A DNA stretch of 64,000 nt from Pleurotus ostreatus/Saccharomyces cerevisiae fusant. Lineage: Eukaryota > Opisthokonta. Of this stretch, positions 33,446 through 58,436 are shown piece after piece. How positions within the stretch are numbered: position 1 is the first letter of the stretch; every line of letters begins with the position of its first letter. The notes beneath the pieces were generated by a model. That model ran no database searches, was not told the origin of the DNA, and saw only the letters and a program-made list of their open reading frames with translations. The DNA lies in NCBI GenBank assembly GCA_024196135.1, contig JAMQCK010000047.1, positions 62,001 to 126,000 of the forward strand, written 5' to 3'. The translations under genes were made by a program, and so were the position numbers.

Positions 33446-34313
33446 GGCGCCTGATAGTTATCCGGCTAGACGACGATTAGATTCGCTTGCGAGGCGAGCA
33501 AAGGTGGCCGCACCAGATGTGGTCAGCGTCCGATCCTGCGAATGTCCTTGTACTCCAAAGGTACAACAGCAGCACCCCGAGTGATCCTCTGTACACGGCA
33601 GCAACGTGGTTTCGTCAGCAACAGCGAGGCGTTGGCGAAGATGGCATCAGCGCTCACCTTGGTGTCCAATCTCAACAGGCTATCCAATGAGTCAATCTAG
33701 CGTCGTGCGCGTCGTACAGCGTTCAAGTTCGTTGGAAGGGAAGGAGAGGCGGTGAAGAGAGACTTCGTGGGCGCCGTGATGGCGGTTCCGTCCAAGATGG
33801 ACGTCGACCGGCGCAAGCCCATTGTTTAGCCGCATTCGGAACGGATGCATTCTCGGCGCCCGCCGATCCCAGGACGCTCGACTCTTCCTGAACATCCTGT
33901 CTCGCCGTACGACGCTCGCACAGCAGCTGAAGTCATTCCGACGACGAAGATCATCGCCTGATGCGCGAGTCTGACTCGCAAGCGACAGCTAGACGCCCAG
34001 TGGCAACGGTGGCACACCGCCCTTCTCGCACGCAGCCACAGTTCGACGAACAAATGCCAACAACATCTATTCGTACTCCAAGGGTGAATATATATTATAC
34101 AGGTATCTCTGGAATATCAGTAGGTGTTGCAGCGGTACCGTAGATGAAGCTAAATGAAGGCGCAATCCTAGCTTGCCCTTCGCCATTATTTTAGTAAATC
34201 GGGTCATCGGGGAGACGTACAAAACCAGGGACGAGTCGTAGGAGGCATGAACGGTAACAGGCAGGGCGAAAGGACTAGCAGCAGCAAGGAATATCAGTCT
34301 TAAAGACCGATCT
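33446..34313. other. Intergenic, F-box 4 to ABC transporter 3' end
   Basis: About 870 nt with no supported gene. The right part should hold the transporter 3' UTR; the left part is upstream of the F-box gene. Short open frames here have no recognisable content. Confidence 0.5.
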
Positions 34314-37300
34314 TTACTGCTGGTCCCGGTGCAGCGCCTCGAAGCGCGAGCCAGGCATGCGCAGAAGCTCCTGGGGAACGCCAATTTCGACGATGCGCCC
34401 ATCGGCCATGACCATAACGGTGTCATAGTCGATGATGGTAGCTGTGGCAGACGGTCAACTAGCGTATCAGGCAATCTCAAGTCACAACTCACAAATACGG
34501 TGCGCGACCGAGATGACAGTCGTGTCGCGCAAGGCCGTCTGTAGCACCTCAAGGAGCTTCTTGTCCGTGGCCATGTCCATGCTGTCAACATCGGTCAGCC
34601 CAATCAACCCCAAGCAAGAATGATGCTTCTCGTACCTTGACGTCGCCTCATCAAGCACCACGATGCGGCGCTTCTGCAAGAGCACGCGCGCAATGCACAG
34701 CAGCTGGCGCTCACCGCCGGAGAACTGAAGGCCGTCCGCAGAGATCAAGGTGTCAAGCTTTCCGTCGAGGTTCTCCACGGCAGCCTTCATGCCGACAAGA
34801 TCGAGGGCGGACCAGATTTGCTGATCGTCGATACCTTCAGCGCAGCCAAGGAGAAGGTTGTCGCGGAGGGAGGCGTATAGGAGGAAGGGCGTTTGAGAGA
34901 CGGTGCTACAGGGGGTGTTCAATAGAGGATAGAGACATTGGAGGTGCAGCTTACCTGATCGCCTCGCGCAGCCTCTTGACTGGCACGGTCGAGATGTCCA
35001 CACCGTCGATGAGGATCTGACCTTGCACCAGGTCCTCCTGGTCAAGCCCACGAAGCAGTGCAAAGACGGTGCTGCTCTTGCCGCTGCCCGTGCGCCCACA
35101 GATGCCCAGCTTCTGCCCGCTGCGCACCGTGAAGGTCAGGTCGTCCAGCACATACGGCGAGTCCTCCGCATAGCGCAAGCTGACGCCTCTGTACTCGATC
35201 TGCCCCGCACTCGGCCAGCTCGGGCCAGGGTCGACCTTCGCGTCCTTCTCCGGGTCGTAGTCCTTGCGCAGGGAGTCGAGCTCGAAGACACGCTCGACGG
35301 AGACAACACCGTTCTCCACGCGGGTGTAGGCGAGAAGGAGGTTGATGAGGCTCTGCGCGAGGCTGACCAATTGCGAGAGCGCGACACCGAGGAAGCCGCC
35401 GGAGGTCGAGCCGCGAAGACCGACTGCGAGGGCAGCAATGGCAATGGCGATGAGCGCCGTCAGGAGGTTGAGTGCAGTGCGGAGGAAGCGGATGCCGGCG
35501 TAACGGTAGTACATAGGCGCTTGTGCGCGGTCGAGGTGGTGGGCGCAGGCCGTCTTGAAGAGACGCTCAGCCTGGAAAGCGCGGATAGTGACCAGCCCAT
35601 TAAGCGAGGACGTGAATGCAGTGTACATGGGCGTCTTCGAGCTCATCGTCAACCGCTGTAGCTGCCTCGAAGTCGCCAAATAGACGCGCTGCAACGACCA
35701 ATAGAACAGCCCAATGAACGGTACTGCAATCGCCAGCCACGGCACCGCAATCAGAATCAGCACGACCGCGCCAATCACATACACCGCCGTGAACGTAAAG
35801 TCCTGAATCGCGCGCGGGAACGCAAAGTCCGCGACGAACATGTCGCTCGACCAACGGTTCTGCAGCATGCCCGCAGGCGTGCGCTGGAAATACGTGACGG
35901 GCGCGCCGAGCACCGCGTCGAGCTGGCGCGCGTGGATGGCGAGCGAGGCGTGCGGCGCGGTGTGCTGCGTGTAGGTGTACATGGTGACGAAGGACGCGAG
36001 GAAGCAGGCGACGGTGAAGGCGGCGTAGCCGCCGAGCCAGGGCCCGTGGTTGCGCGAGCCGCTCTCGGACCAGAAGCGGAGGAGGATCTGGAGGCCGACT
36101 TGCATGCCGGTGTAGAGGATGAGGCAGGCGAGGCAGAGAAGGAGGCGCGGGTAGCCGCAGGCGTGGAGATAGAAGCGGTAGGGCGCCCAGGAGGAGACAC
36201 TCGGGGCATCCTTCTTGTCGTTCTCCGCGTCCTTGGGCTTTGCGGGTGCCTGCATCCCCGTCTTCATGGGTCCAGGGGCAGGCGTCGTGGGCGTTCCGGC
36301 AGCAGTCGCGGCAGACTCGTCGTCGTCCGCAATATCCTGCTCCTCCTCGTCTTTCTGCTCGCCGACATACTTGCGCAGATCGACATGGTGCGCATGCAGC
36401 TCGGCGAGCGTCCCCTCCGCCACCACCGACCCCGCATCGAGCACAATGACATGGTCCGCGACGCCGAGATGCCGATCTGGGAAAACCGGGTCAGCGGGCC
36501 GATCAAGCGAAGCATGCCGACGGCGGCCAATGGCCGCGCGCGCATCTCAAAACAAACACTCACGGCTGTGGGTGGCGAGCACGACGATCCCGCCGCGGAG
36601 AAGGCCCTTGCTCCCGAAGAGCGCGTCGAACACGGCATTGGAAGTGTGCGCGTCGAGTGCGGAGAAGCAGTCGTCGAGGAGTGTCACCCGGCAGCGGGCG
36701 TATACCGCGCGGGCGAGGGACTACGGCATGGCTTGTCAGCAAGAACAACGACGACAAACGACATCTGGCTTACGATACGCTGCCTCTGGCCACCACTCAC
36801 GGATCCACCTGCGTCCGCCATCACCGTCATGTCACCCTTGTCCATGCGCGCCAGGTCGGGGCGCAGCGCGCACGCATCGATCACAGTCTCATACCATTCG
36901 GCATCGAACAAGTTGTCAAGAACGATGTTTTCGCGCACGGTCGTCGGCCACACGAACGCCTCCTGGGGCGCATATGCGATACGTCCAGTCGGCAAGGTGC
37001 CCGTTCCCGTCACGATCTTCGTCTCACCGAGCAAAGTCCTCAACAACGTTGTCTTGCCCTACTTCTCGTCAGCCTACCAGCCGCAACATGCAAGGGGTCG
37101 GCACTCACCGATCCCACCGGACCCGCAATCATGTTCAAGCTGTTCGGATAGATGTTGGCGCACACGTCGGACAGGATGGCCTTCCCTCCTGTGTTGCCCT
37201 CGACCGTGACATGCGAGAGCTGCAACTGCCTCGGGACTGCCGTAATCGACGATCTCGCCGTCATCTCCCCGTCATCCAGATCTTCGTTCAGCAGCTTCAA

Positions 37301-39258
37301 GTCCGCCGTCTGATGCAACCCATCGCTTGACGGGCGCTCCTCCATGGACAAGAAGCCCTCAATGCGCTTCATACTCGCAAAGGACGCCAGCAAGAGCGGG
37401 AAGCAGTTGCCTACGGTGCTAATCGGTAGTGTCGCGAGGTTGACCACGGTCAAGATTGTGAAGAGGTGCTCAGGCCTGAGCTGCTCGTCCTTGATGCCGA
37501 CGTACGTGCCGAGCGCGGAAACGCCCGCCAGGTTGATAGTTGCCGAAGAGAGGACACCGACGATGACCAGCTGCTTGAAGAACGAGCGCAAGAAGGCGAT
37601 CTCCTTGTTGCGGACCGGTTCTACCCACTTGGGCACGGCGGGCTCGACGGCGAGGAGCTTGATGGGGATGATCTGCGACATGACCGACGTCTGCGAGAAC
37701 GAAACGAATGAATCGGGCACTTATGTTCAAGGGAAGAAGCGACCAACCAGGACTTTGATCCGTGCTTGCGTGCTACCCATCCAGTTCTTCTGGGCCTTTG
37801 CGACGCGCTTGCCGACCCAGCTGGTGACAAAGCAGAAGCCGGCCATGATGCAGATGGGAGGGATCATGGCGAACGATGCCTAGTGCAATGATAAGTATGG
37901 ACCAGGCTGGGTACTACGATTAACATACCTGGAACCAGAGCACGACCGCTGCGACGACAATGGACACGACAGCCGACCACGTCTCGTGGAAGAACGCAAT
38001 GCCCTCGCAGACACGCTCGACGTCGACGGACATGTACGTCACCGCGGCGCTGCGCCCCTCGCTCTCCGCCACCGTCGCAGACAGCAACATCGACTTGTCC
38101 ATGATCACGCTTACGAGCGCTGCGCGATATGTGACGACCATCGTGTACACGCGGTCCCAGTACAGGCCGGTCAAGAACGCGATACTCGGGTACACAATCG
38201 CGTACGCGCCGACGAGCGCCCAGCCCTGCGCCGCATCCTGGTGCACATTGTCGTCCGAGTACGAGTCGATGAAGCTGAGCATGCGCTTCACAAGGTACGG
38301 CTGCGCGAATGTCGCCGCGACCAAGAGCAGCTTCGGCGTCACCGGCGCGAGGAATTCGGGCGCGAACGCGCGGATGGAGGGCCCGAAGATGTGGTGCCGG
38401 CCATCCTTGCCTTTGTCGACGGCGAGCATCTCGCGCAGGCGGCGGTTGGCGGGGGCGGAGGAGAGGTTTTCGGGCAGGCCAAAGGCGTTGAGGTCATCGA
38501 GGGTGAAGGTGCGTCGGAAGCCGCTGATCAGGACGGGATAGAGCCAGACGAAGAAGAGGCGCGCGGGCAAGGACGCTGTAGGCTCGTGCGCGGCGGGCTG
38601 GATGAATCGTAAGTACACATGTTTTCTCATCGTGTTTCCCCGCATACCTTGTGTGACGCCCTGAGGAATCTGCGCTTGTGCGTGAGTTCGACGAACACCA
38701 AGCACGCCCGGGCACCGAATGCCACGGCGAATGCGGGGAAGAACTGCAGGTGCTTCAAGGATGTATTGGCGTATGTGCGTAGTTGGGTCGCGGAGAATAA
38801 TGCAGTGAGCAGGAGATAGCAGGTGATGAGGGTGCTGGGCGCCGGACGGCGCGTGTGATGCAGGTACGACAGCGGTGCGAGGACGACCTGGGAAAAGACC
38901 TGTCAGCGCGGCAGTAAAATACACGATCGCGAGTACGCACCGTCGCCGCCAGCTCAAGCCCAAACGCTGTGGTCGCCCATTCCGCCCAGCCATCGCGGGG
39001 AAGGAGGCCTAGTGTTGCAGCTAGCGATGCCAGAAGCACCGCGTACAGGGTAAGCTTCACGCATACGAGCGCGTCGAGTGCCGATTTGGTGATCGAATGC
39101 CTCCGCCAGAGGTCGGTCGTGCGTGTAATGCCGAGGAAAAGGAATACAGCAGCGGGAAGGATGGCGAGGATGCGGTACTGGAACCCAAGGCTGAAGTCCA
39201 TCGCGCGGCAGGACGCCGCTGGCCCAAAGCCCGCTTCATCGCGGCAGACGGCCTCCAT
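34314..39258 (-). CDS. Full-length ABCC (MRP-type) transporter
   Basis: ATP-driven exporter of the multidrug-resistance-associated family, at the plasma or vacuolar membrane. Exons in reading order: 39258-38941, 38899-38648, 38597-37929, 37879-37748, 37690-37109, 37058-36774, 36720-36564, 36476-34955, 34905-34636, 34581-34493, 34441-34314; 1467 residues. The order is an N-terminal five-helix TMD0-like part, TMD1, NBD1, an acidic linker, TMD2 and NBD2. NBD1 has GPVGSGKTTLL (split by an intron) and the signature SGGQRQRIS. Its Walker B is LLDD, lacking the catalytic Glu, as is usual for ABCC proteins. NBD2 is complete: GRTGSGKSS, FSGGERQ and VVLDEATS. It is divergent from the adenylation gene across a promoter with GATA sites, which suggests export of the cluster product. 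Fungal ABCC pumps also export xenobiotics, so the substrate is an inference. Confidence 0.93.
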
Positions 39259-39346
39259 CGAGCACTGGGAGGGCGGGGGCGCGGAAACTTGGAGGGATGA
39301 GCGCACTAGACTGCGACGGGACCAACGTGTATCTAATCTGCATCAA

Positions 39347-39355
39347 ATCAGATAA
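39347..39355 (+). promoter_or_regulatory. GATA site ATCAGATAA
   Basis: Exact match to ATCWGATAA, the site described for SreA-type GATA repressors that shut off siderophore genes when iron is plentiful. Binding here is inferred. Confidence 0.65.
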
Positions 39356-39548
39356 GCGGGCTATTTTGATCGCCAGGCATCACGTGGAGAGCGTCCGCGC
39401 TGGGTGGGGGCTTCGTGGCTCCTCTTTCTGCCTTCTCGGCGCGGTTTGCATGTGGGGGACCGGCTGTCGGGTGATGGATGGCCTGGGAGGGTTCTCGGGG
39501 GCTTGGCGGGTCGGACGTGGCCGGGATGCGGTCGGCGATGGGCGGCCG

Positions 39549-39557
39549 TTATCTGAT
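39549..39557 (-). promoter_or_regulatory. GATA site ATCAGATAA, reverse orientation
   Basis: The plus strand reads TTATCTGAT, the exact reverse complement of the first site. A CGATAAG (39572-39578, fitting HGATAR) follows 15 nt downstream on the plus strand. Confidence 0.65.
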
Positions 39558-39673
39558 TAGGGCGCATGGCGCGATAAGATTGTGGCCTGACGTTCGATCG
39601 GTGGGCTGATCCGCCTCCGTTGGGCGCTAATCCGGAGTCCGAGCCGGAACTCGACTTGTTCGTCTCTGCCGTC

Positions 39674-42306
39674 ATGCTCGTTTCAACTTCGCACAGCGGG
39701 CCCTACACCTACCACCCGCTGCCTGACCTGGGGTCTATGCAGAGGCAGCCTGCGCATGCTCCGTGTAAACTCAGCGTTTCCTTGAACAAGGAAGTCAGCG
39801 CGCTCGATGACGCCGTCCGGAGCGACCTACGCGCCGCTTTCGCGAGCACGCTCATGAAGTACATCGACAGCAACGACTTTCTCTTCGGAGAGACAGAGGA
39901 GGACTACATTTTTGACCCCGAGGCTGTAGTCATTCGCCTCGCGCGCGCCGAACTGCAGGACGGCCGCTCCTGGCGCGACTTCGCCACATCCCTCGCACGC
40001 GGCGCAGAGTGCTGTCTCGACGATGTGCGCCTCGAGCTCATGCTGGGGGATCACCAGAACCCCCTGCCTGCGATGGTTATCTGGGACGTCCTGCGCTGCT
40101 CTGATCCAGAGGTGTACGCGCCCTCCAGCATCGTCTTCGGCGCGCACATCGACGGCGGACGTGTCTTCCTCGACCTCCTCGCCGATCGCGCGCTCATCTC
40201 GCCCTCTGCGCTCGAGAACTTCGTTGCCCAGATCGTCGAGACCTATGGCGCCATTACTACTTTGCCCGACGAGCCGTGTACGACGCCGGTCAAGATGCCG
40301 CAGGAACTGCTCTCCGTCTCGCCCGCGACAATCGACCCCGCGCAGGAGAAGGTCGTCGTGGAGTGGCTGTTCGAGAACGCAGCGACTCGTCCAAACGCTA
40401 TTGCGCACGAAGTGTATGCCTCGCTGGAGCAACCGCCGCAGTTCGTCACATATGGCGAGCTGAACGAGCAAACGAATGTGTTGGCGCGATGGCTGGTGGC
40501 GAATGGGGTTGGCATTGAGGACAAGGTGTGCTTGTGCAGCCAACGGAATGCGTTCTTCTACGTCGCGATGGCCGCTATACTCAAGGCGGGCGCTTGCTAT
40601 GTTTCGGTACGTCTTCTCGTCTGCATCATGTACTTGTCGCCTGATGACTTCCCCCTAGATCGACGTCGAACTCCCGGTCGAGCGCAAGAAATACATCGAG
40701 CAGGACAGCGAATCCAAATTCGTCTTCGTTACCTCCCAAGACGACGCAGGCGTCTTCGCGCATCCTGCCTTGCTGAAGGACGACCTCCTCCGGCAAGCGC
40801 GTGAGGAACACGGGAACGAGAATATCTGCCTAGCGTCTCTCGACAACTTAGCGTATCTGCTGTATACTTCAGGTTCGCTTGCCTCTTCCTCCCGCATATA
40901 TACAGTTTGCTAATCACGCTCGCTAGGTACCACTGGCACGCCCAAGGGGTGCTTACTCGAGCATCGTGGCCTCTTCTGGGCCATGGTGTCCTTCTGCGCG
41001 CTCCCTCGCCCGGTCACGAACCCCGATACCGACAAGCGGTTGTCGCTTGCATGTAAGTCCTCTCCCTGCCTCTCTTTCGTCTCTACCTTCTCAGCCACAC
41101 CCTAGCCACCGCCTTCGACGTGCACATCTCCGAGATCGTCCAGTCCTGGGGTCTCGGGACACGCCTTGTCAGCGCACCGCGCTTCGAGTTGCTCACCCAG
41201 CTCCGAAAGCATGTCATCGACATCGGGATCACGCACGTCGGGATGGTGCCGAGCATGATCGAGGCGCTGTTGGAGACGGCAGATGGGCTGCCGCTGAAGT
41301 ATCTGGTGTCGGGCGGGGAGAAAATCACGGATATGTTGCTGCAGAAGTGGTCGACAAGGCAGGATCTGGTATTGGCGAATTTCTATGGGTGAGTACAGTA
41401 TTCTCTCGGTCACCGCCGCCGATTAATTCCTGACGACCCCCCAGCCCCACCGAGGCCACCATCGGCTGCACCTCGCGGCGCGTCGGGCCCAACGACCGGA
41501 AGGAAAATATCGGGAAGGCGTTTCCTTCCTGCGGGGCGTATGTCTTGGACAAGAAGTTGCGGACTGTGCCGCTGGGCTGCCCAGGCGAGCTCGTACTGTC
41601 GGGTCCGCTGATTGCGAGAGGTGCGTGCGGGTTCATCGTGATGATGGTTTTCGCGACTTCTTTTCCCTCTGCTTACACTACCCCAGGCTACCACAACCTC
41701 CCCGAAGCCACAGCAAAGGCCTTCATCCACCTCCCCGATGGCACGCGCGCCTACCGCACCGGCGACCTCGTGCGCATGCTGCCCGACGGGACGCTCGAGA
41801 TCATGGGCCGCATCGACCACCAGGTGAAGTACAGGGGCGTGCGTATCGAGACGGAGGGGATTTCGTCGATTTTGGCGGGGTCGGCGAGCAGCACGAACGA
41901 CGTCGAGCTCTCCGTGCTCACCTTCATCACTGGACACCCACAGGTGGGGCCGGAGCTGTTGGTCAGCTTCGTCGCGCCGGCGGCCGCGAAGGACGTGAGC
42001 GTTGAGGAGAGACGGAATGGGGTGCCGGGGGTGAAGAAGCCGGATGCTGGGTGGGAGAGGGGGACGGGGAAGGGGAAGGGGGAGGAGGAGAGAACGGAGA
42101 CCGGTGCCACCACCACGAAGGACCTGATGCGGACGCTCAAGCGTGCGGTCGAGGAGCAGCTGCCGTCGTATATGCGCCCTGCGTATATCATCCCGGTCGA
42201 GTATCTGCCGCTGACGCTAAACGGAAAGACGGACAGGCGGAAGTTGGAGCATATTTTCCAAGGAATGGGCCTGAACGAGTTGTTGCAGGCGCAGGGTGGG
42301 CGGTAG
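39674..42306 (+). CDS. Free-standing NRPS adenylation-domain protein
   Basis: Predicted to activate an amino or carboxylic acid as an adenylate. Exons: 39674-40606, 40659-40872, 40927-41052, 41106-41388, 41445-41620, 41687-42306; 783 residues. The first 200 residues resemble the C-terminal part of a condensation domain (SIVFGAHIDG...FLDLLADRALI), as at the start of the neighbouring NRPS. A complete A domain follows: LLYTSGTTGTPKG, FDVHISE, SGGEKIT, NFYGPTEATIG, YRTGDLV and NGKTDRR with the A10 Lys. Reading the GrsA specificity positions by eye gives about D-V-S-G-V-G-F-I-G-K. The A8 block is odd (VRIETEGISS instead of VRIELGEIE). The protein stops about 17 residues after NGKTDRR, with no thiolation, thioesterase or reductase domain. 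The start is the first ATG; a second ATG lies at 39737. Confidence 0.85.
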
Positions 42307-42848
42307 CGCGATGTATTGCGTCCCTTGTGTTGTGCTATTCAAAGTCTGTATTGTCTGCACGTCGCAGCTGCGCGCAGAATGCACCATCGAGCAAGGTAGC
42401 TATGGCGCGATCTGAAGATGACGATGACCGGATGCTCGTCGGTTCAGCCGTCCGACAGGGCGAAGATGAGCAGGCTGCTCGACCTTGGCGCACATGTCGG
42501 CGAATGCAGGACGGCGTTCCAGACCACTAAACCTGTCATTGCGTGGGTTACGCCCTGCCATCGTACGCATGCCGAAAGCCCTCGCGCCTGAGTCAATGGA
42601 GGGTGTGAAAGTCGAACGTCGACGTCCGGGTGCCCTGCCATCAGCCCGCGTGCTTCATCTAATCGCCATTGCAAATGGTCTGTTAATCTGATATGATAAG
42701 ATTTCGCCCGGCGCTATCGCGATCTGGTGACATGACAGATCCGCTGTCCTGCCGGAGCGTGCTGCGTTCTGCTCCTCTCTCTTCGTCTACCACGACGCTC
42801 GCCTTGCGCACTGAAGCGATCAACTCGCCTACTACAGCCTCACCAACC
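42307..42848 (+). promoter_or_regulatory. Intergenic region upstream of the NRPS, with GATA doublet
   Basis: About 540 nt between the adenylation gene and the NRPS start. A doublet ATCTGATAT / TGATAAG lies at 42686-42700. The first element misses ATCWGATAA by one base and the second fits HGATAR. The reading frame of the NRPS is open through this point, but the ATG at 42849 in ACCATGG context is the better start. Confidence 0.5.
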
Positions 42849-45800
42849 ATGGCTGCACCACCCGCACCCGCGATGAACGCGCTACCCGCGACGCGAGTGC
42901 CCTGCTTCTACCCGAATACACAGACTATCGGCGGGGCGACCGAGGGAGTCGTCCAGCAACGAATCGACAGCCCGCCCGACTCTACGCTCGAGACGCGCTA
43001 CCAGTCCTGCGCGGCGACAGTGCGCGCGCTGCTCGGCACCACTGGCGAGTTCGCGTTCCGCGTCGGCGATCAGCGAGTCGCCGTCGTCGAAGGCGTCGAC
43101 GAGCCGGGCGCGCCAGAGACGCTGAACATCGTCGATGCGTCAGGTGCCGAAGGACTTGACGCGATCGAGGTCAAGTTCAGCGCGGGGAAAGGATCGGGGG
43201 ACGAGAAGGCAAAGTTCCATATTGTCGACACCGGGAACGAAGTCAAGATCGTGTATGCGCATCAATGCGTACCGGACGATCTCGCGAACAGGCTGCTCGC
43301 ATTCTATGTGCGGCAAGCCTCCAAGACGCCCTCCACCAACGACCAGGAGGCATCATTGTCCATCCTGAACCACCCACCTCAAAACTACCCGGCGGATACC
43401 CAGGCTCCCGCCCTACTTCACGCGCCATTCCTCCTTTCCGCCAAGGCGCGCCCTGAAAACATCGCGGTCGACTATCTCGGACCCGAGGACGCAGAGCGCC
43501 AGCGCCAGGCGATCACGTACGGCGAGCTCGATGCGCAGTCCGCGGCACTAGCGAAGGTCCTCCGTAACATCGACGGCGCGCGCAATAGCATCGTGCCGTT
43601 TTTGCTGCCCGCGTCTGTCGAGATCTACGTCGCGTACTTGGGCATCTTGCGGTCGGGAAAGGCGTTCAGTCCGCTGCCGACGCTCGACGGCGCGCCCGTA
43701 TCGCGGGTGCAGGAGCTCATTGAGGATTTGGCGGCGAAGGTTTTGGTGGGAATGGGGGAGCGCCCGGCATGGCTCGACGAGAAGGTCGAGTGGATTGACA
43801 TCGCGGACACGGAGGCTTTGCTGGCGCGCGCCGCGGGCATAGAAGCCGCGCTCGACGAGCTCGCGCAGAGCCCAGACGATCTGGCATATGGTGAGCGCCA
43901 TACACGCATCCTAGAGCGCGTCTAACGCACCTCACTCCCCAGTCCTCTTTACCTCCGGCTCAACCGGCAAACCCAAGGGCGTGCAAATCGCGCACCGCTC
44001 GGCTTCGACGTCTATTCACGGTCACTTGAGCGTCAGGCGCGTGTCGCCCAACGCGAGGTGGTTCCAGTTCGCCGCTGCTACGTTCGATCCAGTGAGCGCT
44101 TCGCGTCGAGGGTCGTATACAATGCTAAGTCGCGTCTATAGTCCGTCATGGAGATCTTCTGCACCCTATCTTGCGGCGCGACACTATTGAGCGCCTATCG
44201 ACCGCGCTTCCTTACCGACCCGGACAAGGTCCTGGGTGAGCTCGGCGCGACGAACATGATGGCGACGCCGAGCATGGCCGCAGTGCTGAAAGCGGAGCGA
44301 ATTGGTGCGTTTACTGAGTCCAAATTTTCTGCTCTTGCTGACATTTTCATAGTCGAAATCCGCGAGAAAACGTACGGCCCCGTCGCGGACGATCTCGAGT
44401 ACGCGTTCGAGCTGTGGACGATGGGGGAGAAGCTGAGCGACCGCGTGATCGCCGAGTTCGATCGCGCGCCCCGCTTCTCGGTGTGGAACGCTTATGTCAG
44501 TAGGCTCGGCATCTTCCGTACTTCCTCTGCCTTGAACTTCGTGCTCATCGTTTGCAGGGCCCGACGGAGGCGTCTATCAATGTTACGCTCAGGAAGCATC
44601 CGAAGGGGGAGTCGGGGAGTAGGCTGGGGCCCCCTATACCGACGGCGTCGATGTTGGTGCTGCATCCGACGGAGCCGCGCGCAATTGCGCATGGCTTCCC
44701 CGGCGAGTTGGCGCTGGGAGGGGTACAAGTAGCAAGAGGGTGAGTTGGATTTATTATTGTCCGCATATAAGCGCTGACATCTTGGTCTTCAGCTATCTGA
44801 ACAACCCGGAGCAAACTGCACGCGTCTTCGTTGATATTCCCGGTGTCGGTCGCGTATATCGCACGGGCGATTGGGCGCGTACAGTCGTCGGCCAGGATGG
44901 GCAGTGGTCCGAAATTGAGTACTTGGGAAGGATGGGTGTCGATCAAGTCAAGCTCTCTGGGCGACGTGTTGAGCTTGGAGAGGTGCGTTACTTGCCATGT
45001 TTACAGTGAAGCACGCTAAACGGGTCCCAGATCGACGCTGTCTTGGGACAAGTATCGGGCGTTCAAGCCGCCTACTCGGTCGTCGTGGAGGGTCGGCTGT
45101 TGGCCCTCGTCATTCCGGAGGACCCATCGATCGTCGACTCCGACGCCGACAACGCCCAGCTCGCCAGCAAATTGAGCGAGCACGCCGACATCCACCTGCC
45201 GCTGCATATGCGCCCATCCTCATACCACTTCGCAACAGAGACACCGAGGTCTTCCTCTGGCAAGGCCGATCGTCGCGCTATTGCTCGCATTGTTGCCGAT
45301 CGCGAGTCCGCCACGGAGAAGGCGCCGGAGGATGCCACCGCATACGACGCGACGAACGAGTCCGGGTCCATGTCGTTGGTCCGCAAGCTTGTTTCTGAGG
45401 CGGCAGATGTCCCTCTGTCGGCTGTCACCCCTCGCTCGAATCTACTCCGTCTTGGTGTCGACTCCCTCAAGGCCGTTCGGCTCTTGTACCTCTTGCGACA
45501 GGCTGGCGCAGAGGATCTGGCTCGCCTCAACGTTACTGACATCCTGTCCTGCTCCACGCCTGCGGACATCCTCGCAGCCGCTGCGTCCAAGACGACCTCG
45601 GACGACGCGACTGCAAGCACCCAGGCCTGCGAGCAGGCCATCTCGGACTTCAGGACCGTCGCGCGCCGCACGCTGGGTCTCTCGGACGACTCATCCGTCG
45701 AGATCTGGCCCGCGACCCCCATGCAGGCCGGTGTGCTGGCCTTGTACCTGCGCAGCGCGGATGCGAATGGCTACATCAACCACTCCGTCTTCCATCTCGC

Positions 45801-48800
45801 GCCAAGCGTCGACGTCACAAGGCTCAAGAAGGCGTGGGCGCGGGTTGTGAAGGACAACAAGATTCTGCGCGCGAGGTTTGTGTTGGTCGACCAGTCGGAG
45901 GTGTCGCCTTTTGCGGTGGTCGTGAAGGAAGGGGAGGCCGATGTAAAGTGGATCGAGGATAGCGGGGAGGGCGCGCTGGAGCGGTACTTGGCAGAATCGC
46001 CGAAGAGGATCGCACCGGAGCAGCCATGGTCGGTGGCGATACTTGATGGCGAGCAGAAGCCGACTTTCGTCCTGACTCTGCACCATGCGTTGTTCGGTGC
46101 GTTGAGTTGCTGGTTGATCTCTGCCTACACGCTGACAGTAGTATAGATGGCGCTTCTCTTGCGCTGATGCTTGAGGAGCTGGAGGTGTATTACAATGAGC
46201 GTTCCGACCTTCCGCATACTGGCTTTGAGCATTCGGTTCGCGATGCTCTTTCTGTCGACGCGGCGAAGGCGACAGATTTTTGGAAGGGCATACTCCAAGG
46301 TGAGCAAAGGCTTCATCTATATACGGAGCCTCGATCTAATTATTTTGCAGGCTTCTCCCCGGACCCCTTCCCGGACCTTACCGGCCTGCGCGCGTATGCA
46401 AAGGCGTCCTCGCCTGTCTTTACCGTCGACTTCTGCCCCACGCATCATGCGTCTACTGTCATGTCCCGTCTGGCATTCTCGCACCTGCAGTCGAAGTCTC
46501 GCGAGCTCGAGACAACTCCTCTCGCCGTCGTCCAGGCCGCCTGGGCGCAGCTCCTACTCAGCTACTCCGAGTCCGACGAGCCCGACATCGTCTTCGGGTC
46601 CCTCGTCGGTGGACGCACGACGGACGCGCTCGAGGTCGCCGTCGGCCCGGTCTTCACCGCGGTGCCCATCCGGGTGCACGTCAACAAGTCCGGCTCGGGC
46701 GTCTGTGCGACCGCGAGCACGAAGGAGGTTCTGGCGCAGCTGCGCGACATGAATATCAAGAGCATGCGCCACCGGTACCCGCCCGTGAGCGTGCTGAGCG
46801 GGGCGAATGGAATTATCTACGACACGACGGTTGCGCTGCAGAACTTTAGTCAGGGCAAGAGTCAGACGGAGCTGTGGACGAGGGCGGAGTATCCGCCGAT
46901 GGTGACTGAGGTGCGTTAAACGTTGGCTTGGTCGGGTATCGTTGCTGATGACCTTCAAGTTTGCCGCCGTTCTAGAGATCTGGCCTGAGGAAAACGACTC
47001 GATCCGCTTGCGGCTTACGGGCTCGAACAATGTCCTGACGCCGGAAGCGTCGCGGACTCTGTTGCAACAGTTTGACGACATCGTCGCCGCCATCCTCTCG
47101 CGCCCTGCTAACGAGACCCTCGCCACCACTTTGTCCGCCATGCGTCCAGAGCTCCAGGCCGCCGTGAACACCACCCCAACGCCCGTCGAAACGCCCTCCC
47201 CCAACACGCTTATCCACCACCAATTCGAGGCCAACGCGCGCGAGCACGCGGACAGCGTCGCCGTCTGGTTCAAGACCGACCTCGCGCGCCCCGAGTCCGA
47301 CATTCGCTTCACTTACGGTGAGCTCGACGCCCGGGCGAACCAGCTGGCGAACCTTCTGCTTTCCACCTACGGCGACCTCACCGATCAGGCGGTCCCGCTG
47401 TGCATGGAGAAGAGCCCCGAGCTGTACATCGCGATTCTGGGTGTTTTGAAGGCGGGCGGCGCGTGGTGCCCGGTGGATGCGCAGGCGCCGGAGATTCGCA
47501 AGCGGGATCTGTTTGGTAGGGCTGGCGGTACGGTTGTGCTGGTGAGGAGTGCGGCGGGGTATGGGGAGCATAGGGCGGCGTTGCCGGAGGGGTTGGATAT
47601 GTTGGCGCTCGACGACGTCAAGATCGACGAGCAGTCGAAGGAGAAGCCGAGCGTGAGGACAACCATCGAGGACCTTGCGTATCTCATCTGGACGAGTGGG
47701 ACGACGGGCGCACCGAAGGTGAATACCTTGATACTTTCATCGTGTTCCTTGTCCTGACTTTGCCGTAGGGCGTCCCCATCCAACACAAGGCGGCAGTGCA
47801 GAGTCTGACGGTCCTTCAAGAAGTTATTCCCTTCGGCCCTGACCCGGTGCTTTGCTTGAACTTCTCGGCGTACACCTTCGACGTCTCAGTTCTCGACGTC
47901 TTCTACGCGTTGGGCAAGTCGTGCGGCACGTTGTGCTCGGCGTATAAGGACATCCTCGTCGGCCAGTTCGCCGAGGTCGTCAACGCATTCGAGGCGACGC
48001 ATGCTTTCGTAAGTGCAATCTAACTCAAGTGTTAACCACATGCTCACCCGTTCCTGTAGCTCACCCCGGCGTTCATGGCGCAGTCATCGCTTGCAGAGTG
48101 CAAGACGTTGCAGAGCCTCATCAGCATCGGCGAGAAGCTCCCAGACACGGTGGCGGACAAGTGGTGTCGGCCAGAGACGGTCTCGCTAAACACTTACGGC
48201 CCTGCCGAGGCGACGATCATCGCGACGTACCGCCGCTGGCAGCCGCAGGAGGCGACGAAGGCGCACAATGTCGGATTCCCGATACAGACCGTGAGCTGTT
48301 ATGCGGTGAAGGAGGATCTAGTGCTGCCGCGTGGGGCGGTTGGAGAGCTTGGTACGTGAAATGGCATCTTGTAAGAGATGTGAGCTAATGGATACGGGTA
48401 GCGCTCGGCGGGTACCAGAATGCGCGTGGTTATCATCGCCAGCCTGACATGACGGCGAAGAAGTTCATCGAGCATGCCATTGCCGGCAAGGTCTACCTTA
48501 CTGGCGATATCGTTCGCGTACGTATACCACGTTCTCAACATCGCGTGTCGAGCTGACACGGACTTCAGTTTTTGCATGATGGCTCAATCGAGTTCGTGGG
48601 CCGGCACGACGATCTTGTCAAGCTGGGAGGCATCCGTGTCGAGTTGTCGGAGATTAGCACGGCCCTCGAGGGCTGCCATCCGCGCGCGGCGGAGGTCGCA
48701 ACGCTACAGCTCAGTCGCCCGGAGTAGGTCTTTGCCCTATGCGCGTCCTCAACGAGTCGCTGACAGTACGCATAGCCGCCCGCAGAAGACGGTCTGCTCC

Positions 48801-51800
48801 TTCATCGCTGCATCGTCGTTGCAGCCGCCGGACGTGGTGTGCACTGGTCCCGATGCCCTTGAGGTTGCAGGCGCTGCTATAAGGCGAGCCGACGAGATGC
48901 TTCCCGGCTTCATGCATCCTAGGTACGGGTTATCTTCCTTCTGGCCCTCGCACGGGTTGTTGACCTTCCGGCAGCGTGTACATCGTCGTCAAGCGCATTC
49001 CTCACACGGCCTCCAACAAGGTTGACCGCAAGGCTTTGGCGGAGTACTATGCCTCGATGGACATCTCGACTTGGGAGGAAGCGCTGGCGAAGGACCACGG
49101 TCGGCTCGAAGACGAATCCTGGTCGCCGCTTGCGACGACAATACGTGACGCAGTGGCTGACCTGACGGGAACCCCTGCTGAGCGTATCAAGAAGACGACG
49201 CCGCTTAGTGCTCTTGGTGTTGATTCGGTACGTAGTGCGCTATATCGCTGTAGTCCATGTGCTCATTGTTGTCGCAGATTCGTGCGCTTCAGCTTGCATC
49301 GAAACTGCGCAAGGCTGGCTCTTCGATCTCCGTCGGCGAAATCCTGTCCCATCCTACGATACAGCGTCTTGTGAAGGCGAGCGAGAGCAAGGCCGACAAG
49401 GCCCCGTCGGCGGCGGCTTGGTGCGACGAGTTCGACAAGAAGTGGAGGCCGGCTGTTGCACGAGCAATGCCTGATCAACAGGTGGAGCGCGTCATCCCCT
49501 GCACGCCTTGTGCGTACTCCATCCCCCGCCACCATGCCAGCTACTGATGTTATCATAGTGCAAGAAGGCATGCTAGGCGAGACCATCAAGGATCCAGCGG
49601 CGTACTGGTCGCATCGTCTATTCTATCTCGAGAACGGCTGCGACATCCAAAGATTGATCAACGCATGGAAGACGATGGCTTTGCGCACGGAAGCTCTCCG
49701 ATTAGCGTTTGCGCCTGCAGCGGCGTACAGTGCTGCTGTCGATGGATTGCAGAAGGACGATTACACACCGTGGGTCGTTTCATGATGCGTCTTCAAGAGA
49801 CTGACTCGCGGCTCCAGGGTGTTCGTGCAGGTTCTGCTGTCGTCAGCGAAGGTCAGAGTCCAACGGGAGCCAGGTTTATCTACGAACAGCGCGCGCGACT
49901 TTGCGCGTACTTTGGCGACTTCGCTTTCTCGAGCACCAGCACCACTATGGGCCGTGACGATACTGGGCGAAGACGTCGGAAAACCGGCAATGTTGCTTAG
50001 CATGCACCATGCTCTCTACGACGGCCATGCCTACAAACTTCTACTCGACGATGTGCTTCAAGTTTACGATTGTCAAGCCGTAGCACCTCGACTGCAGCTC
50101 ACGTCCGCCGTGTCTCGTGCTTTCTTCCTCGAAGACCCGAAGAAGCCGCTCTCGCTTTGGGAGCAGATTTTGTCGCCGTTTGCGGACGCCTACGCTCGAC
50201 CATTCCCTGATCTTTCGGATGGTTCGCGCGATGTCAAGACCGGGTTCACGACGCGCAAGTTCGAGCTAGATCGTGCCGTATTGTCGAAAGCGTCAAGCGC
50301 GATCAACGCGTCGATTGCTCAAGTTCTTCAACTTGCCTGGGCGACAATCCTGGGCGCGTACATGCGGACCGACAAGGTGGTCTTCGGCGAGACCCGATCG
50401 CTGCGCTTCGAGGACTCCTCGCTTGAGGGTGTGGTGGCACCGATGATCGCCACTTTGCCCGTCGCTGCCAACGTGGAATCCTCGACATCTGCTCGACAAT
50501 CTTTGGTCGACATCGTCGAACGCTCCTCAGCCAGCCGGTCCTCGTCTTTCCTCAGTTTGCAACATGTCCGCCGAGTTCTGCGCCGCCCCCTCGATCAAGC
50601 TCTATTCCCGGCAATCTTCGTCATGAACTCCGTCGAATCCGCGGACTCCGGTTTCCAGTTGGCGTCCCGTCTGTGGAGAGAAGCTGGCGAGTTGACGAAT
50701 TTGACGGTCGAGCACCCTCTGGCGGTCAATGTATACGTTTCTAGCGATAGGATATCTGTCCATGTTTCCGGAAGTAATCAAACGATGTGCGTTCTTACTG
50801 AGTGTTTCCAGCGCTCTGACTCTGATGTTCGATCGCAGACCTGCGGACAACGTTGAGCTTCTGGCTAAGCAGTATAAGGCTGTCGTCCAAGCGCTGTTGC
50901 GCGATGTGGATCGACCAATGAGCGACATCCTCGATCTTCCGAGTGACCTTCTCTCTATTGTGCGAAGTCCCGAAACGTCAAGTGCGCCTGCCGTCAACGG
51001 GACGCGTGATGTCGAATCGCCTTCGCTTCGTCGATTGAAAGAACGCGCCGAGGAAACGCCCCGCATGATAGCGGTGGCGTCCTATGACGAGGGGAATGCG
51101 ATTGAATGGACGTACGAGGCGCTCGAAAAGGTATGGCGAACGCTTGAGGAGTCATCGAAACGTGTCTAACAACTGCTGCAGAGGTCGAACCAAATCGCGC
51201 GGTGGATTATTGAGCGTCATCCGCCATCCCGCGTCGCCGCCATCGCCCTGCCTCGTTGTCATGCTGCATATCCGTACATACTAGGGTTAGTGCGTTCATG
51301 CGCTTCTACAGGTCGTACTAATATCGTTGTAGCGTCTTGAAGTCCGGCCGGACGTACTTAGCTATTGACGACGACGACACCCCTTCACGCAAGAGGCTGA
51401 TGCTTCGTTCTGCTCGAGCTGATATCGTCTTCGTGGCCGCCAACAAGTCGGGAGACTTCAGACAACTCTCTAAGCCGCAAGTTGTTGTCATCGATGAAGA
51501 AGCGCACCAGCAAGAGGTCGCCAACGTGAAGGGCGCCGCGGTAGATGCTCAATTGGCTGACCATGCTTGCAGTACGTTCTCCGACTTTTCTCCTCAGCCG
51601 ACTCTCATCCCTGTGTAGTCACTTTCGAAGGAGAGCATGAAAGCAGTGCACAAGCAAGCTTTGTATCGCACAAGAGCCTCTGGAGAGCGGTATCGGCGCT
51701 GGAGAGTCAGTTGGACCCGGCAACGATATTCTCATGGATTGGATCTGGTATATCCTCTTCTCGAATCTCACTGGCGTCGCTCATCAGACCTGCAGCTTCG

Positions 51801-54800
51801 GTCTTGCACTTGGTAGAACTTCTAGCAGCCATCAGCAAGGGGGCGAAGATAGCGGCGGTTTGCCCCGGGCGCCTAGCCGATCGAGGTCTCAAGGAGGTCG
51901 TCAACATGACCGGCGCAGCTCAAAGCATGTGAGTACGGCTTCCTTGTCCGCAAAATTCTCACTAATCGGCCTTCAGAGTTTCTTTTGCTGTGTTGGACAA
52001 CGAGGGTTTGCAGCCCGAAGATGTTCCTCAACTCAAACACCTGCTTCTGACAGGTACTCGCAACGCGGTAGTGGTATCCAGGGCGCACTGACAACCTGAC
52101 AGGCCTCCCTTCGCAATCTCCGCTGATCAAAGACTGGGCGACTGCCGAAGGCAGACAAGTCATTACTGTAGGACTATTTCGTCTCGACTGGTCATTCTGC
52201 GTAGGACTCATCCTCCGAACAGATTTTCGGGCTGCCAGAATTCGGTTCTCTCTGTACCTTCGCAAAAGCAGTGGCAGGGACTCGTGATATTGGTCATCCA
52301 AGGGAGGGTCTCGTCGCTGTGCTTACACGGCAAGGTAAACCTTTGCAGGTGGCCCTACGTGGGGAAATCGGGGTAAGTTGGATTGTCACCGTAACTTACG
52401 TATCGTTGAGCTGAGCATCATTAGGAATTGCACTTTGCTGGCGAGCATGCTGAATACTTGCGACCCTATATGGGCAGCGATGGCGCCGATCACCCATCTT
52501 TGGGTCGCTTCACTCGCTCTGGTCTCTTCGCACGTGTTGGGCCCAGCGATGTTGGTCATTCTGTCTTATGCAGCAGTTCATTACTCACACACCTGCAGTC
52601 TTTAGTGGTCGTCGGCGAGACGGACATCTGCGTCGTTCCGGGGAGACCGTCTATTCCCTCTTCCGACGTCTCCGATGCTGTAGCCTCGGTCTCTCGACAG
52701 ACACTCCGGATAGCAACACTACCTCTCGATCATCCTCAAGGCATGCAGACTTACGTCGTTACCTTCGTGGCTCGACGAGCGGCTATCGGCGCGGACGCAG
52801 GCCTACCCGCTCTGTCGGACGACGACCTTCCTCTCGCACGGGCTTTGCTGGCATCGTGTCGCGAGCGTCTCCCTTCCCATCTGACACCCGATGTCATCGT
52901 CCCCTTGACATTCCTACCCCTCAACAACGTCGCGGTCGGGACATACGACCGAAGGAGCCTTCGCCGATTCTTCTACGCATACCCTCTATCCGCAATCAAC
53001 AGTCAGCAAGGCAAGAGCTCGGCGGTGTCAAGACCCCTCAACGACAAGGAGAAACGTATTCGGGACATACTCAGCTCGACCGCTGGAGTTCCTGCGGACG
53101 CCATCCAAGCATCTACCACGACACTCGAGATAGGCATTGACTCGCTCAGCGCCATTTCACTTAGCCTCAAGCTAAAGGACGCCGGCTTCTTCGTACCGCC
53201 CTACGTCATTCTTGCCGGCCCTTCCCTCGAGAAACTCGCGAGGGCCTCTGGTGCCCCTGTAGATTCCAGGGATGACAACGCCCAATGGGAAGTGGCTCCC
53301 GACGTGCAGCATGAGGCCATACACCATGTCGCGGTAGGCGTCGAGGCAGTCCTTCCGTGCTTACCACTGCAAGAAGGCTTGGTCGCCCTCACACTCAATT
53401 CGCCCGAGCCGATCTATGTCAATCACTTCGTCACTATCCTGGAGGAGGGCACCGACATAGCCAGACTCAGAGCCGCCATCAAGGACACGGTATCCGCGAA
53501 CCCAATCTTGCGGACGTGTTTCTTCGCGGCGCAGGACAGCATAGTGCAAGTCGTTCTCGAGCCTAGCGATGAAGTGCTGCAATGGCTCGATGTGGACGTC
53601 GTCGAAGGACAGGTTCTCGAACATCTTCAAGCGGACTTATACCGTGTCGCAAAGGAAGTCGCAGCGGAGATATCGAGAAAACCTCCCATCCGATTCGCAG
53701 TCTATAGTGGCGAAGGACAACCTTCCTATCTCTGCTGGACTTTGCATCATTCCGTCTACGATGGTAAAGCTCTTCCTTTGTTATCGTGACGATGCTGACG
53801 GCCTTTGACAGGCGAGTCACTCCCGATGATCATGTCGGAGGTGAGGCGCAGGTACGCTGGCACATTCAATTTGCAGCGCCCGTCGATCGTCAAGCTGCTT
53901 CAATACTTGGCCCGCCAGTCCTCGGACTCTGCTCGCGCATTCTTCACCGAGTACCTCGACGACGCGCCTCGGAACCTTGCCTCCAACGATACGACGGCAG
54001 AATCCAGGCATCATCGTCTGCGTCTCGACACGCCACTTTCTGTGCTGGAGAAGAATGCTCGAGCGCTGCATGCTAGCCTGCATGTACTGGCGCTCTCTGC
54101 CTTCGGGACCGCCCTGGCAGAATATCGCGAACGCAATGATGCCGTTTTCGGGGTTGTTCTGTCAGGTCGGACGGTGGACGTCGACGGGATTGCAGACATG
54201 CTGGCGCCCTGCATCACGACAGTACCGATGCGCGTTCGCTATACAGAACAACCGTTGTTCAATGATGTCGTAGCGCAAGTGCAGGGCGACATTGAGCTCG
54301 TCATGCAGCACCAGCACACGCCCCTCCGACACATACAGAGGTGGCTAGCTAGGGGCGAGCCGCTCTTTGACGCCCTCTTCAATCTCGTCCGGCAGGGTGC
54401 GCCGAAGGAGTCAAACGCAGAGGAGCCCGAGCTTTGGGGATCGCTCGACAGCAAAGCCGTGCTCGACGTGCGTCTCTCCTCCAAACCTCTGTCGCCCGTT
54501 CGCTCACTCTGCTTTAGTACCCACTAGCGGTTGCGGTCGAAGTTGATGCCGTGAACGACGCTGTCTTCATCCGAGCCGGGCATCTTCCCACTTTCGGATC
54601 GTCAGCGTCCGTCAAGACCCTCATCGAGCGCATAGCTAACCTGCTGCAACATCCCGAACAAACGCTGACATCGTACGACGTCTCCGACGCGCAACAAAGT
54701 GACACACGACCGGCTTACGACAACTCGCACTGGTCGGAGGACGAGATTTTGATTAGGGATGTGGTGGCGCAACTCTGCAATGTCTCAGCAGATGTGATCA

Positions 54801-57800: not shown

Positions 57801-58436
57801 GGCTTTCGACGGCGTGGATGTTCTGGCGGGCCCGACGGTCAACGTCCTCCCGATGCGGCTGCCCGGTCAGGATAATGTTTCAATCCATGATGCGGCGCGC
57901 GAGCTTCAGACGGAGATGGGCCGGCGCACGGCGCACGAGCAGACGAGGCTGCGGGATGTGGTGTCTTGGACGCTGGGTGAAGGCCGCGGCGCAATCTTCA
58001 ATGTGTGGCTCAACCTCTTGTGGCACGGGGACAAGATCCGGACGATACGAAAGGGGAGCGAGAGCTTGCTGGAGAGCTTCTCGGTACGTGCTTGGTTGAC
58101 TTACCTGGATGCTCGTTGTGTGGCTGACCGTGAACGTATTCCAGGTCGGACCACCGACGGACTTCATCTCTGCGAAGCCGTTCGAGGAGCTGAAGTCGTC
58201 CGTGGATGCGATGGATACGTCGTATTTGCCCGAGGTGCGTGGCGTCTGCCTTTGTGCCGTGCTTACGCTGACTTGCTCTGTAGCATGGCTTCTTCGTCGA
58301 TGTCGTCCTCAACACGGAGACGGACAGTATCGGTCTTGCTATGAGGAGTCACGAAGCGCTGCTCGATGCTGAGGAGCTGCAGAAAGTTATCGATTTGTTC
58401 GCGAGCGGTGTTCGTAAGGCGGTCGGGGAGTTGTAA
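42849..58436 (+). CDS. Multimodular siderophore-type NRPS
   Basis: Peptide synthetase of the fungal ferrichrome-synthetase layout, 37 exons and about 4580 residues. The domain order (approximate residues) is A1 190-700, T1 763, C1 848-1210, A2 1300-1800, T2 1868, C2 1947-2370, A3* 2400-2910, T3 2974, C3 3045-3450, T4 3505, C4 3587-4000, T5 4064, C5 4151-4580. A1 ([27 protein letters not shown]) and A2 ([25 protein letters not shown]) look active. Hand-read codes are about DPMMWMAINK (A1) and DVLFIITIIK (A2). A3* lacks the P-loop and the A10 Lys. All five T domains keep the Ser in (L/I)GxDS. C1 to C4 keep HHxxxDG; C5 has HHATYDA. No thioesterase is present, so a terminal C domain would release the product. 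Exons 1-7 are 42849-43890, 43943-44091, 44142-44304, 44353-44495, 44558-44739, 44793-44982 and 45031-46096. The last exon is 58284-58436. Ferrichrome-like product is an inference from architecture. Confidence 0.93.

Follow-up and report, generated by a model that had tools for sequence, protein, structure and literature searches.

Two opposed GATA sites as predicted operators of an iron-sensing repressor between a transporter gene and a stand-alone adenylation gene in Schizophyllum

Results

The siderophore locus and its divergent promoter

The window, by which we mean the whole 64,000-nucleotide stretch of DNA analysed here, carries an ABCC/MRP-type full ABC transporter gene on its minus strand (34100..39201; many exons, 3′ end uncertain). 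On the plus strand it carries a gene for a stand-alone adenylation (A) protein of ~780-800 aa that has no T or C domain (39674..42306), followed by that for an Fso1-type ferrichrome synthetase (NRPS) of ~4,580 aa (42849..58436). Both the ABCC and the NRPS genes were delimited by our own gene models. The ABCC protein matches the ABC_membrane and ABC_tran families, and its closest solved chains are MRP1 and MRP4. ABC transporters possibly involved in siderophore excretion have been reported in the SreA regulon of Aspergillus fumigatus (PMC2610380). Upstream of the cluster, two matches to fungal protein kinases (PF17667) are found at 18061-18834 (minus) and 29348-30370 (plus), while an exon of a pyridoxal-dependent decarboxylase (PF00282) lies downstream of the NRPS gene at 60319-60996.

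Judged by its proteins, the analysed genome is that of a Schizophyllum close to S. commune, because one SIT-type transporter is 100% identical to the listed S. commune protein and the NRPS is 94% identical. In three pairs of contigs (C553/C931, C46/C908 and C498/C1094), closely similar genes occur at the same offsets or with the same scores, as if two haplotypes had been assembled apart.

The divergent promoter of the ABCC and stand-alone A (lone A) genes measures 472 bp from ATG to ATG (39202..39673) and contains three HGATAR sequences; its limits are those of our gene models, with the ABCC start at 39201 (minus) and the lone A start at 39674 (plus). On re-reading, ATCAGATAA was found exactly where the original prediction had placed it, at 39347-39355 on the plus strand and at 39549-39557 on the minus strand, as was CGATAAG at 39572. 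The two sites had been described as lying in a stretch of 415 nt, a figure that has to be replaced by the 472 bp of the promoter and by a spacing of 202 bp between the sites, start to start. Counted from the modelled starts, each gene has one proximal site: the core at 39347-39355 belongs to the ABCC-proximal site, 146-154 bp upstream of the predicted ABCC ATG, and the core at 39549-39557 to the lone-A-proximal site, 117-125 bp upstream of the predicted lone A ATG. Both cores are part of AATCAGATAA, a predicted extended iron-GATA site read at 39346..39355 (plus) and 39549..39558 (minus). The accessory HGATAR site CGATAAG (39572..39578, plus) reads CGATAAGAT.

Upstream of the NRPS gene lies a composite, TTAATCTGATATGATAAG, with two overlapping GATA cores (42683..42700, plus). 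Within it, the start of ATCTGATAT precedes the assumed ATG of the NRPS gene (42849) by 163 bp; the composite is one mismatch away from ATCWGATAA and overlaps TGATAA. We also considered an origin of the opposed promoter sites in a mobile element and set it aside, as inspection by eye reveals just 10 bp in common between the arms and no longer terminal repeat.

Occurrence of the motif in the window and in the genome

ATCWGATAA is present only twice in the 64-kb window, against 0.31 copies expected from dinucleotide shuffles, and at least two copies anywhere in the window were obtained in 4 of 100 shuffles. Two or more sites within the 472-bp promoter arose in 2 of 20,000 shuffles (mean 0.003), and a Poisson estimate at the genome rate gives 3.6e-6 for two sites in 472 bp. 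This bears out the earlier view that such a pair is unlikely by chance, with the proviso that these figures are post hoc, the motif having been chosen after the sequence was read; therefore, the test on the rest of the genome weighs more than they do. The genome is GC-rich and contains about one ATCWGATAA per 176 kb, a composition for which the rate of one 9-mer per 65 kb assumed in the original prediction is too frequent. Sites within one mismatch of ATCWGATAA are clustered in the window but not commoner (10 found, 12.8 expected), with six of the ten falling into two patches, namely the 472-bp promoter and 42684-42699 before the NRPS gene.

Across the 40.05-Mb assembly (1277 contigs), ATCWGATAA occurs 227 times versus 112 for the reversed control, AATCWGATAA 51 times versus 23, and the palindrome TTATCWGATAA at 13 places versus 3. 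Measured by the reversed control, about half of the ATCWGATAA copies and nearly half of the AATCWGATAA copies are accounted for as chance. Among the 51 AATCWGATAA places, the pair in the divergent promoter (C691:101346/101549) is the sole pair at most 250 bp apart.

Promoters of other iron genes

For ten promoters, the genes were chosen by protein family or similarity, and the 500 bp upstream of each predicted ATG were then read. A perfect ATCWGATAA lies within 500 bp of the ATG in six of the ten, against a mean of 0.044 and a maximum of 1 in 1000 rounds of shuffling. The binomial estimate at the genome rate is 1e-13, which indicates no more than the order of magnitude, as four of the six positive promoters belong to one transporter family and are not fully independent.

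On contig C869, perfect sites precede a siderophore N-acyltransferase gene (PF13523, at -111) and a SIT-type transporter gene (at -195, with a near-match at -222). Two further SIT-type genes have the palindrome TTATCWGATAA, at -65 on C414 and at -218 on C924; a fourth, on C835, has two perfect sites at -151 and -171 as well as three CCAAT boxes. The remaining positive is a vacuolar iron transporter gene (PF01988) on C1, whose perfect site lies ~270 bp upstream. As for the promoters that lack a perfect site within 500 bp, that of sidA, the first siderophore enzyme (C614), has only GATTAGATAGCGATAA; a SIT-like gene on C46 and a more distant MFS gene on C498 have no ATCWGATAA; and the NRPS promoter has the one-mismatch composite instead.

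The scope of this count was set as follows. The SIT protein P0190 matches nine contigs. Sites occur on four of these (C414, C869, C835, C924), and the marginal C1145 was left out; the transporter on C869 (locus L040) was assigned to the SIT type after its site had been seen. C908 and C1094, apparent second copies of C46 and C498 and likewise siteless, were dropped before the ten were counted. Other PF06609 matches (C1143, C991 twice, C835:12726 and C1179) were judged from their sequence not to be siderophore transporters, and we did not treat the weak PF13434 matches on C391 and C95 as sidA; the loci read there show none. In the 93 kb of loci read outside the window's contig, ATCWGATAA is found only in L040 and L043. 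Although the genome has several SIT-type transporters, it yields no match to the FTR1 iron permease profile (PF03239), possibly owing to a limitation of the search; reductive iron uptake is therefore unusable as a control.

Genes reached through the motif

The genes in this section were found through the motif itself, and hence constitute no independent test. A third AATCWGATAA on C869 lies 353 bp upstream of an enoyl-CoA hydratase gene, which brings the count there to three in 21 kb, before the acyltransferase, the enoyl-CoA hydratase and the SIT-type transporter (P ~3e-6). On C425 (L045, L046), two Suc_Fer-like genes, whose matches both fall below the family's curated cut-off, each have AATCTGATAAGATAC 223-268 bp upstream of the ATG. 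TTATCWGATAA is found ~100 bp before a NifU_N exon (PF01592) of an Isu-type iron-sulphur scaffold on C325 (L070), and as palindromes at -399 and -696 of two O-methyltransferase genes (PF01596) on C713 and C472 (L072, L074). On C1211 (L076), two tandem oxidoreductase genes each have the palindrome TTATCAGATAA upstream; PF07992 was matched in the one that was scanned, and the paralogy of the second was judged by eye.

Further palindromes lie upstream of a weakly AMP-binding-like gene on C220, near an ETF-alpha gene on C1270, and upstream of a weakly SIT-like gene on C480, for which one match is not significant and another amounts to 44% over 39 aa; having been found via the motif, C480 was left out of the ten-promoter count. 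The palindromes on C339, C611 and C173 have no clear target gene. Outside C691:101 kb, C869 and C425 there are 44 AATCWGATAA sites, and among the 15 of these that were inspected none is clearly at an iron gene.

A candidate iron-responsive GATA factor

The GATA finger profile (PF00320) has 13 matches in the genome. A single 313-aa open frame on the C434 minus strand contains both CPGDGRCDGTGGASACSGC, which has the spacing CX5CX8CX2C, and the GATA finger CANCGTSTTPLWRRDDSGNNICNAC (CX2CX17CX2C), the latter being followed, past a presumed intron, by LYYKLHGTHRPNSMKKTVIKRRKRV. A second finger, CAHCGTSQSSVWQQDQEGNPVCNAC, is encoded upstream on the same strand. The two fingers map to 34299-34376 and 33132-33209, with the cysteine-rich region between them; inspection by eye also shows a heptad-like stretch that might belong to a C-terminal coiled coil. 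Stop codons cut the upstream finger off from the remainder, and the automatic model joined the finger exons without the cysteine-rich part. The exon structure is thus provisional, and one protein holding both fingers and the cysteine-rich region is likely to be encoded here. Iron-responsive fungal GATA factors have two fingers flanking CX5CX8CX2C (PMC4992955; similarly PMC2848559), and the C434 gene looks like a candidate repressor of the SreA/Urbs1/Fep1 type. Another GATA protein, encoded on C658 with two fingers ~40 residues apart, was set aside, since no CX5CX8CX2C was seen between its fingers.

The target sequence of such factors has been described in the literature: ATCWGATAA is over-represented in the SreA regulon of A. 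fumigatus, and also agrees with the site at U. maydis sid1 and with sites in two S. pombe promoters (PMC2610380). We put the probability that the two ATCAGATAA sites are operators of an iron-sensing GATA repressor of the SreA/Urbs1/Fep1 family at roughly 0.85. That SreA/Urbs1-type sites would control both the transporter and the free A domain, as had been proposed in the original prediction, is supported by the six of ten promoters, by the candidate factor on C434 and by the synthetase next door. Repression is the presumed sign of iron control at this promoter. Cir1, the Cryptococcus orthologue without the first finger, is an activator of siderophore uptake (PMC2610380); therefore, the sign in the mushroom could differ.

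The cluster might instead be controlled by iron mainly through HapX and the CCAAT-binding complex, with the GATA sites minor or silent. In Agaricus bisporus, iron is reported to repress hapX, and forced hapX expression to raise sidD (PMC8152254). Against this, the 472-bp promoter and the NRPS promoter both lack a CCAAT box on either strand, and the former has two perfect SreA-type sites. HapX could act indirectly, and CCAAT boxes do occur in certain other SIT promoters, such as the three on C835; on the whole, we regard main control by HapX as unlikely.

It is likewise rather improbable that the sites serve a GATA factor of another kind (nitrogen AreA/Nit2, light WC-2 or developmental) and that iron is uninvolved. 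GATA factors of such other types can bind HGATAR, and the 13 finger matches indicate that other GATA proteins are encoded. However, it is the extended ATCWGATAA that is enriched, whereas the window shows no excess of plain HGATAR (80 versus 110 expected); moreover, the extended motif gathers at siderophore and iron genes that had been selected by protein similarity, and the genes adjoining the promoter are themselves siderophore genes. As for a chance juxtaposition of two 9-mers, noticed post hoc among many motifs, about half of the genome's copies do match the level of the reversed control, but the promoter shuffles and the success of the motif's prediction at other siderophore promoters make it very improbable.

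The stand-alone adenylation protein and the synthetase

The NRPS next to the promoter is, by its sequence, an Fso1-type ferrichrome synthetase, with 48% identity to Fso1 of Omphalotus olearius over the full length (100%). Its order is A-T-C-A-T-C-dA-T-C-T-C-T-C, the third A domain being degenerate; there are five T motifs and five C regions, and A-core motifs in A1 and A2 only. The third A domain (window 51200-52900) scores 65 bits, versus 789 and 883 for the first two, and is without core motifs. The seven related synthetases that we checked have just two A-core motifs each. The substrate aspartate of the third A domain is absent from the alignment in our own NRPS model and replaced in S. fasciatum and Wallemia, while D is kept in Fso1, Armillaria and Collybiopsis. 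The degenerate third A domain of fso1 has already been published (PMC2644324). A1 of the NRPS has nearly the same pocket residues as the serine-assigned A1 of SidC/Fer3; A2 shares 10 of 16 pocket residues with the glycine-assigned A2 of A. nidulans SidC and is placed with the SidC/Fer3 A2 domains in the tree. Thus, neither resembles a domain for N5-acyl-N5-hydroxy-ornithine (AHO).

In the lone A protein, the core motifs LLYTSGTTGTPK, YGPTE, YRTGD, GRIDHQVK and GKTDR are intact. Its pocket code, taken from the alignment at 16 positions, is LADVSEQGVVGAFTIG, and the 12 lone A rows, two of which have gaps, differ from one another only at positions 229, 299, 320 and 322. In Table 2 of PMC2644324, whose AHO assignments are themselves predictions, V280 occurs in 4/8 AHO rows and 0/15 others, G301 in 8/8 and 2/15, and G331 in 7/8 and 0/15. 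As a control of the pocket reading, the published Umfer3 residues were recovered from two Fer3-like synthetases at the 16 positions, bar one residue in one A2 row. Phylogenetic trees group lone A with the third A domains of SidC/Fer3 (100/99; 99/99 with eight outgroup rows), and its placement with A1 is rejected (p-AU 0.0008), as is that with A2 (p-AU 0.0005). These trees omit six A3 rows that are degenerate and three lone A rows that are partial; the outgroup tree also omits one long A1 row. By pocket residues and phylogeny, then, lone A looks like an AHO-type A domain. This would be the very type that the adjacent synthetase has lost, a point that had gone unnoticed in the original prediction.

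Orthologues of lone A were found in Schizophyllum fasciatum, Peniophora, Armillaria, Rhodocollybia, Collybiopsis, Wallemia, Ceratobasidium and Meira, among others. Lone A and NRPS are listed with contigs of equal length in S. fasciatum, Collybiopsis luxurians, Rhodocollybia butyracea and Hymenopellis radicata, a sign that they may be linked there; the lengths are unequal in Cylindrobasidium torrendii, Wallemia mellicola and W. ichthyophaga. In the genome analysed here, lone A ends in a stop codon and the gap 42306-42849 contains the GATA composite, both of which speak for two genes and not a fusion. Two public S. commune models (P0242 and P0243) have lone A fused to the NRPS as one protein of ~5,100 aa.

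Given an AHO-type lone A and a degenerate A3 in the synthetase, the domain of the missing type would thus be supplied by an adjacent, separate and apparently co-regulated gene. We lean towards the view that lone A replaces the degenerate third A domain by activating AHO and loading the carrier domains of the synthetase in trans. Given that orthologues of lone A were found in Agaricomycetes, Wallemia and Meira, basidiomycetes with an Fso1-type synthetase would generally have this split layout. A literature search by title and abstract, with most subscription journals outside its scope, returned neither a stand-alone A partner of Fso1 nor an iron-GATA regulon of Schizophyllum.

Discussion

Our results can be assembled into the following proposal. 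When iron is ample, the repressor would sense it via the cysteines of CX5CX8CX2C, as its relatives lead one to expect, and it would occupy the ABCC-proximal and the A-proximal sites, shutting both divergent promoters. Upon iron starvation, the ABCC and lone A promoters would be released together with the adjacent ferrichrome synthetase; the siderophore acyltransferase, the enoyl-CoA hydratase and several genes of the siderophore-transporter type would be co-released elsewhere in the genome. The ABCC pump would presumably export the siderophore, and the stand-alone A protein would help in its synthesis. By having an iron-GATA promoter in common, lone A and ABCC would let building-block activation and export switch with the synthetase.

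If this is true, the iron code of SreA/Urbs1 is directly legible in the genome of a mushroom, which yields a testable iron regulon of Schizophyllum. It would comprise at least four genes of the siderophore-transporter type, the acyltransferase, the enoyl-CoA hydratase and the vacuolar iron transporter and, more tentatively, the Isu-type scaffold, the two Suc_Fer-like proteins and the paralogous methyltransferases. The second part of the proposal, if true, would offer an answer to a question about Fso1-type synthetases, in which A3, the position predicted for AHO in SidC/Fer3, is degenerate: an apparently co-regulated neighbour bears the AHO signature. This would explain how Fso1-type fungi assemble their iron carrier, and split synthetases with a trans-acting A domain could help to engineer hydroxamate siderophores.

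The 9-mer is identical to that of the SreA operators of Aspergillus fumigatus and of the U. maydis sid1/Urbs1 and S. pombe str1/fio1-fip1 sites. As in the SreA regulon, it is found in promoters of siderophore and siderophore-transporter genes, and a candidate factor of the same kind is encoded here. Unlike in the SreA/Urbs1 systems, the predicted Schizophyllum sites are mostly AATCWGATAA or TTATCWGATAA, and sidA is without a perfect site.

The ferrichrome A cluster of U. maydis consists of the Fer3 NRPS, the Fer4 enoyl-CoA hydratase, the Fer5 acyltransferase and the Fer6/Fer7 transporters, according to the account in PMC10098057. Similar genes are found in Schizophyllum, with the NRPS and an ABC transporter at the present locus and the acyltransferase, the enoyl-CoA hydratase and a SIT-type transporter on C869. 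These counterparts, likened by gene kind, have the motif in every promoter, the NRPS copy with one mismatch. In contrast to the U. maydis cluster, the Schizophyllum genes are spread over at least two loci, and a stand-alone A gene is added. Furthermore, the third A domain is degenerate in the Schizophyllum NRPS, whereas it is intact in the two Fer3-like synthetases checked.

The lone A protein resembles the AHO-assigned third A domains of SidC and Fer3 in its pocket residues V280, G301 and I330, and shares G331 with SidC as well. It differs from them in being free-standing, with an extra N-terminal region of ~220 aa and no T or C domains. Finally, the Schizophyllum synthetase is like Fso1 of Omphalotus olearius in that the third A domain is degenerate in both. 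The available part of the Fso1 report (PMC2644324) makes no mention of a partner A protein; in Schizophyllum, unlike what is described for Fso1, an intact A protein of apparent AHO type adjoins the synthetase.
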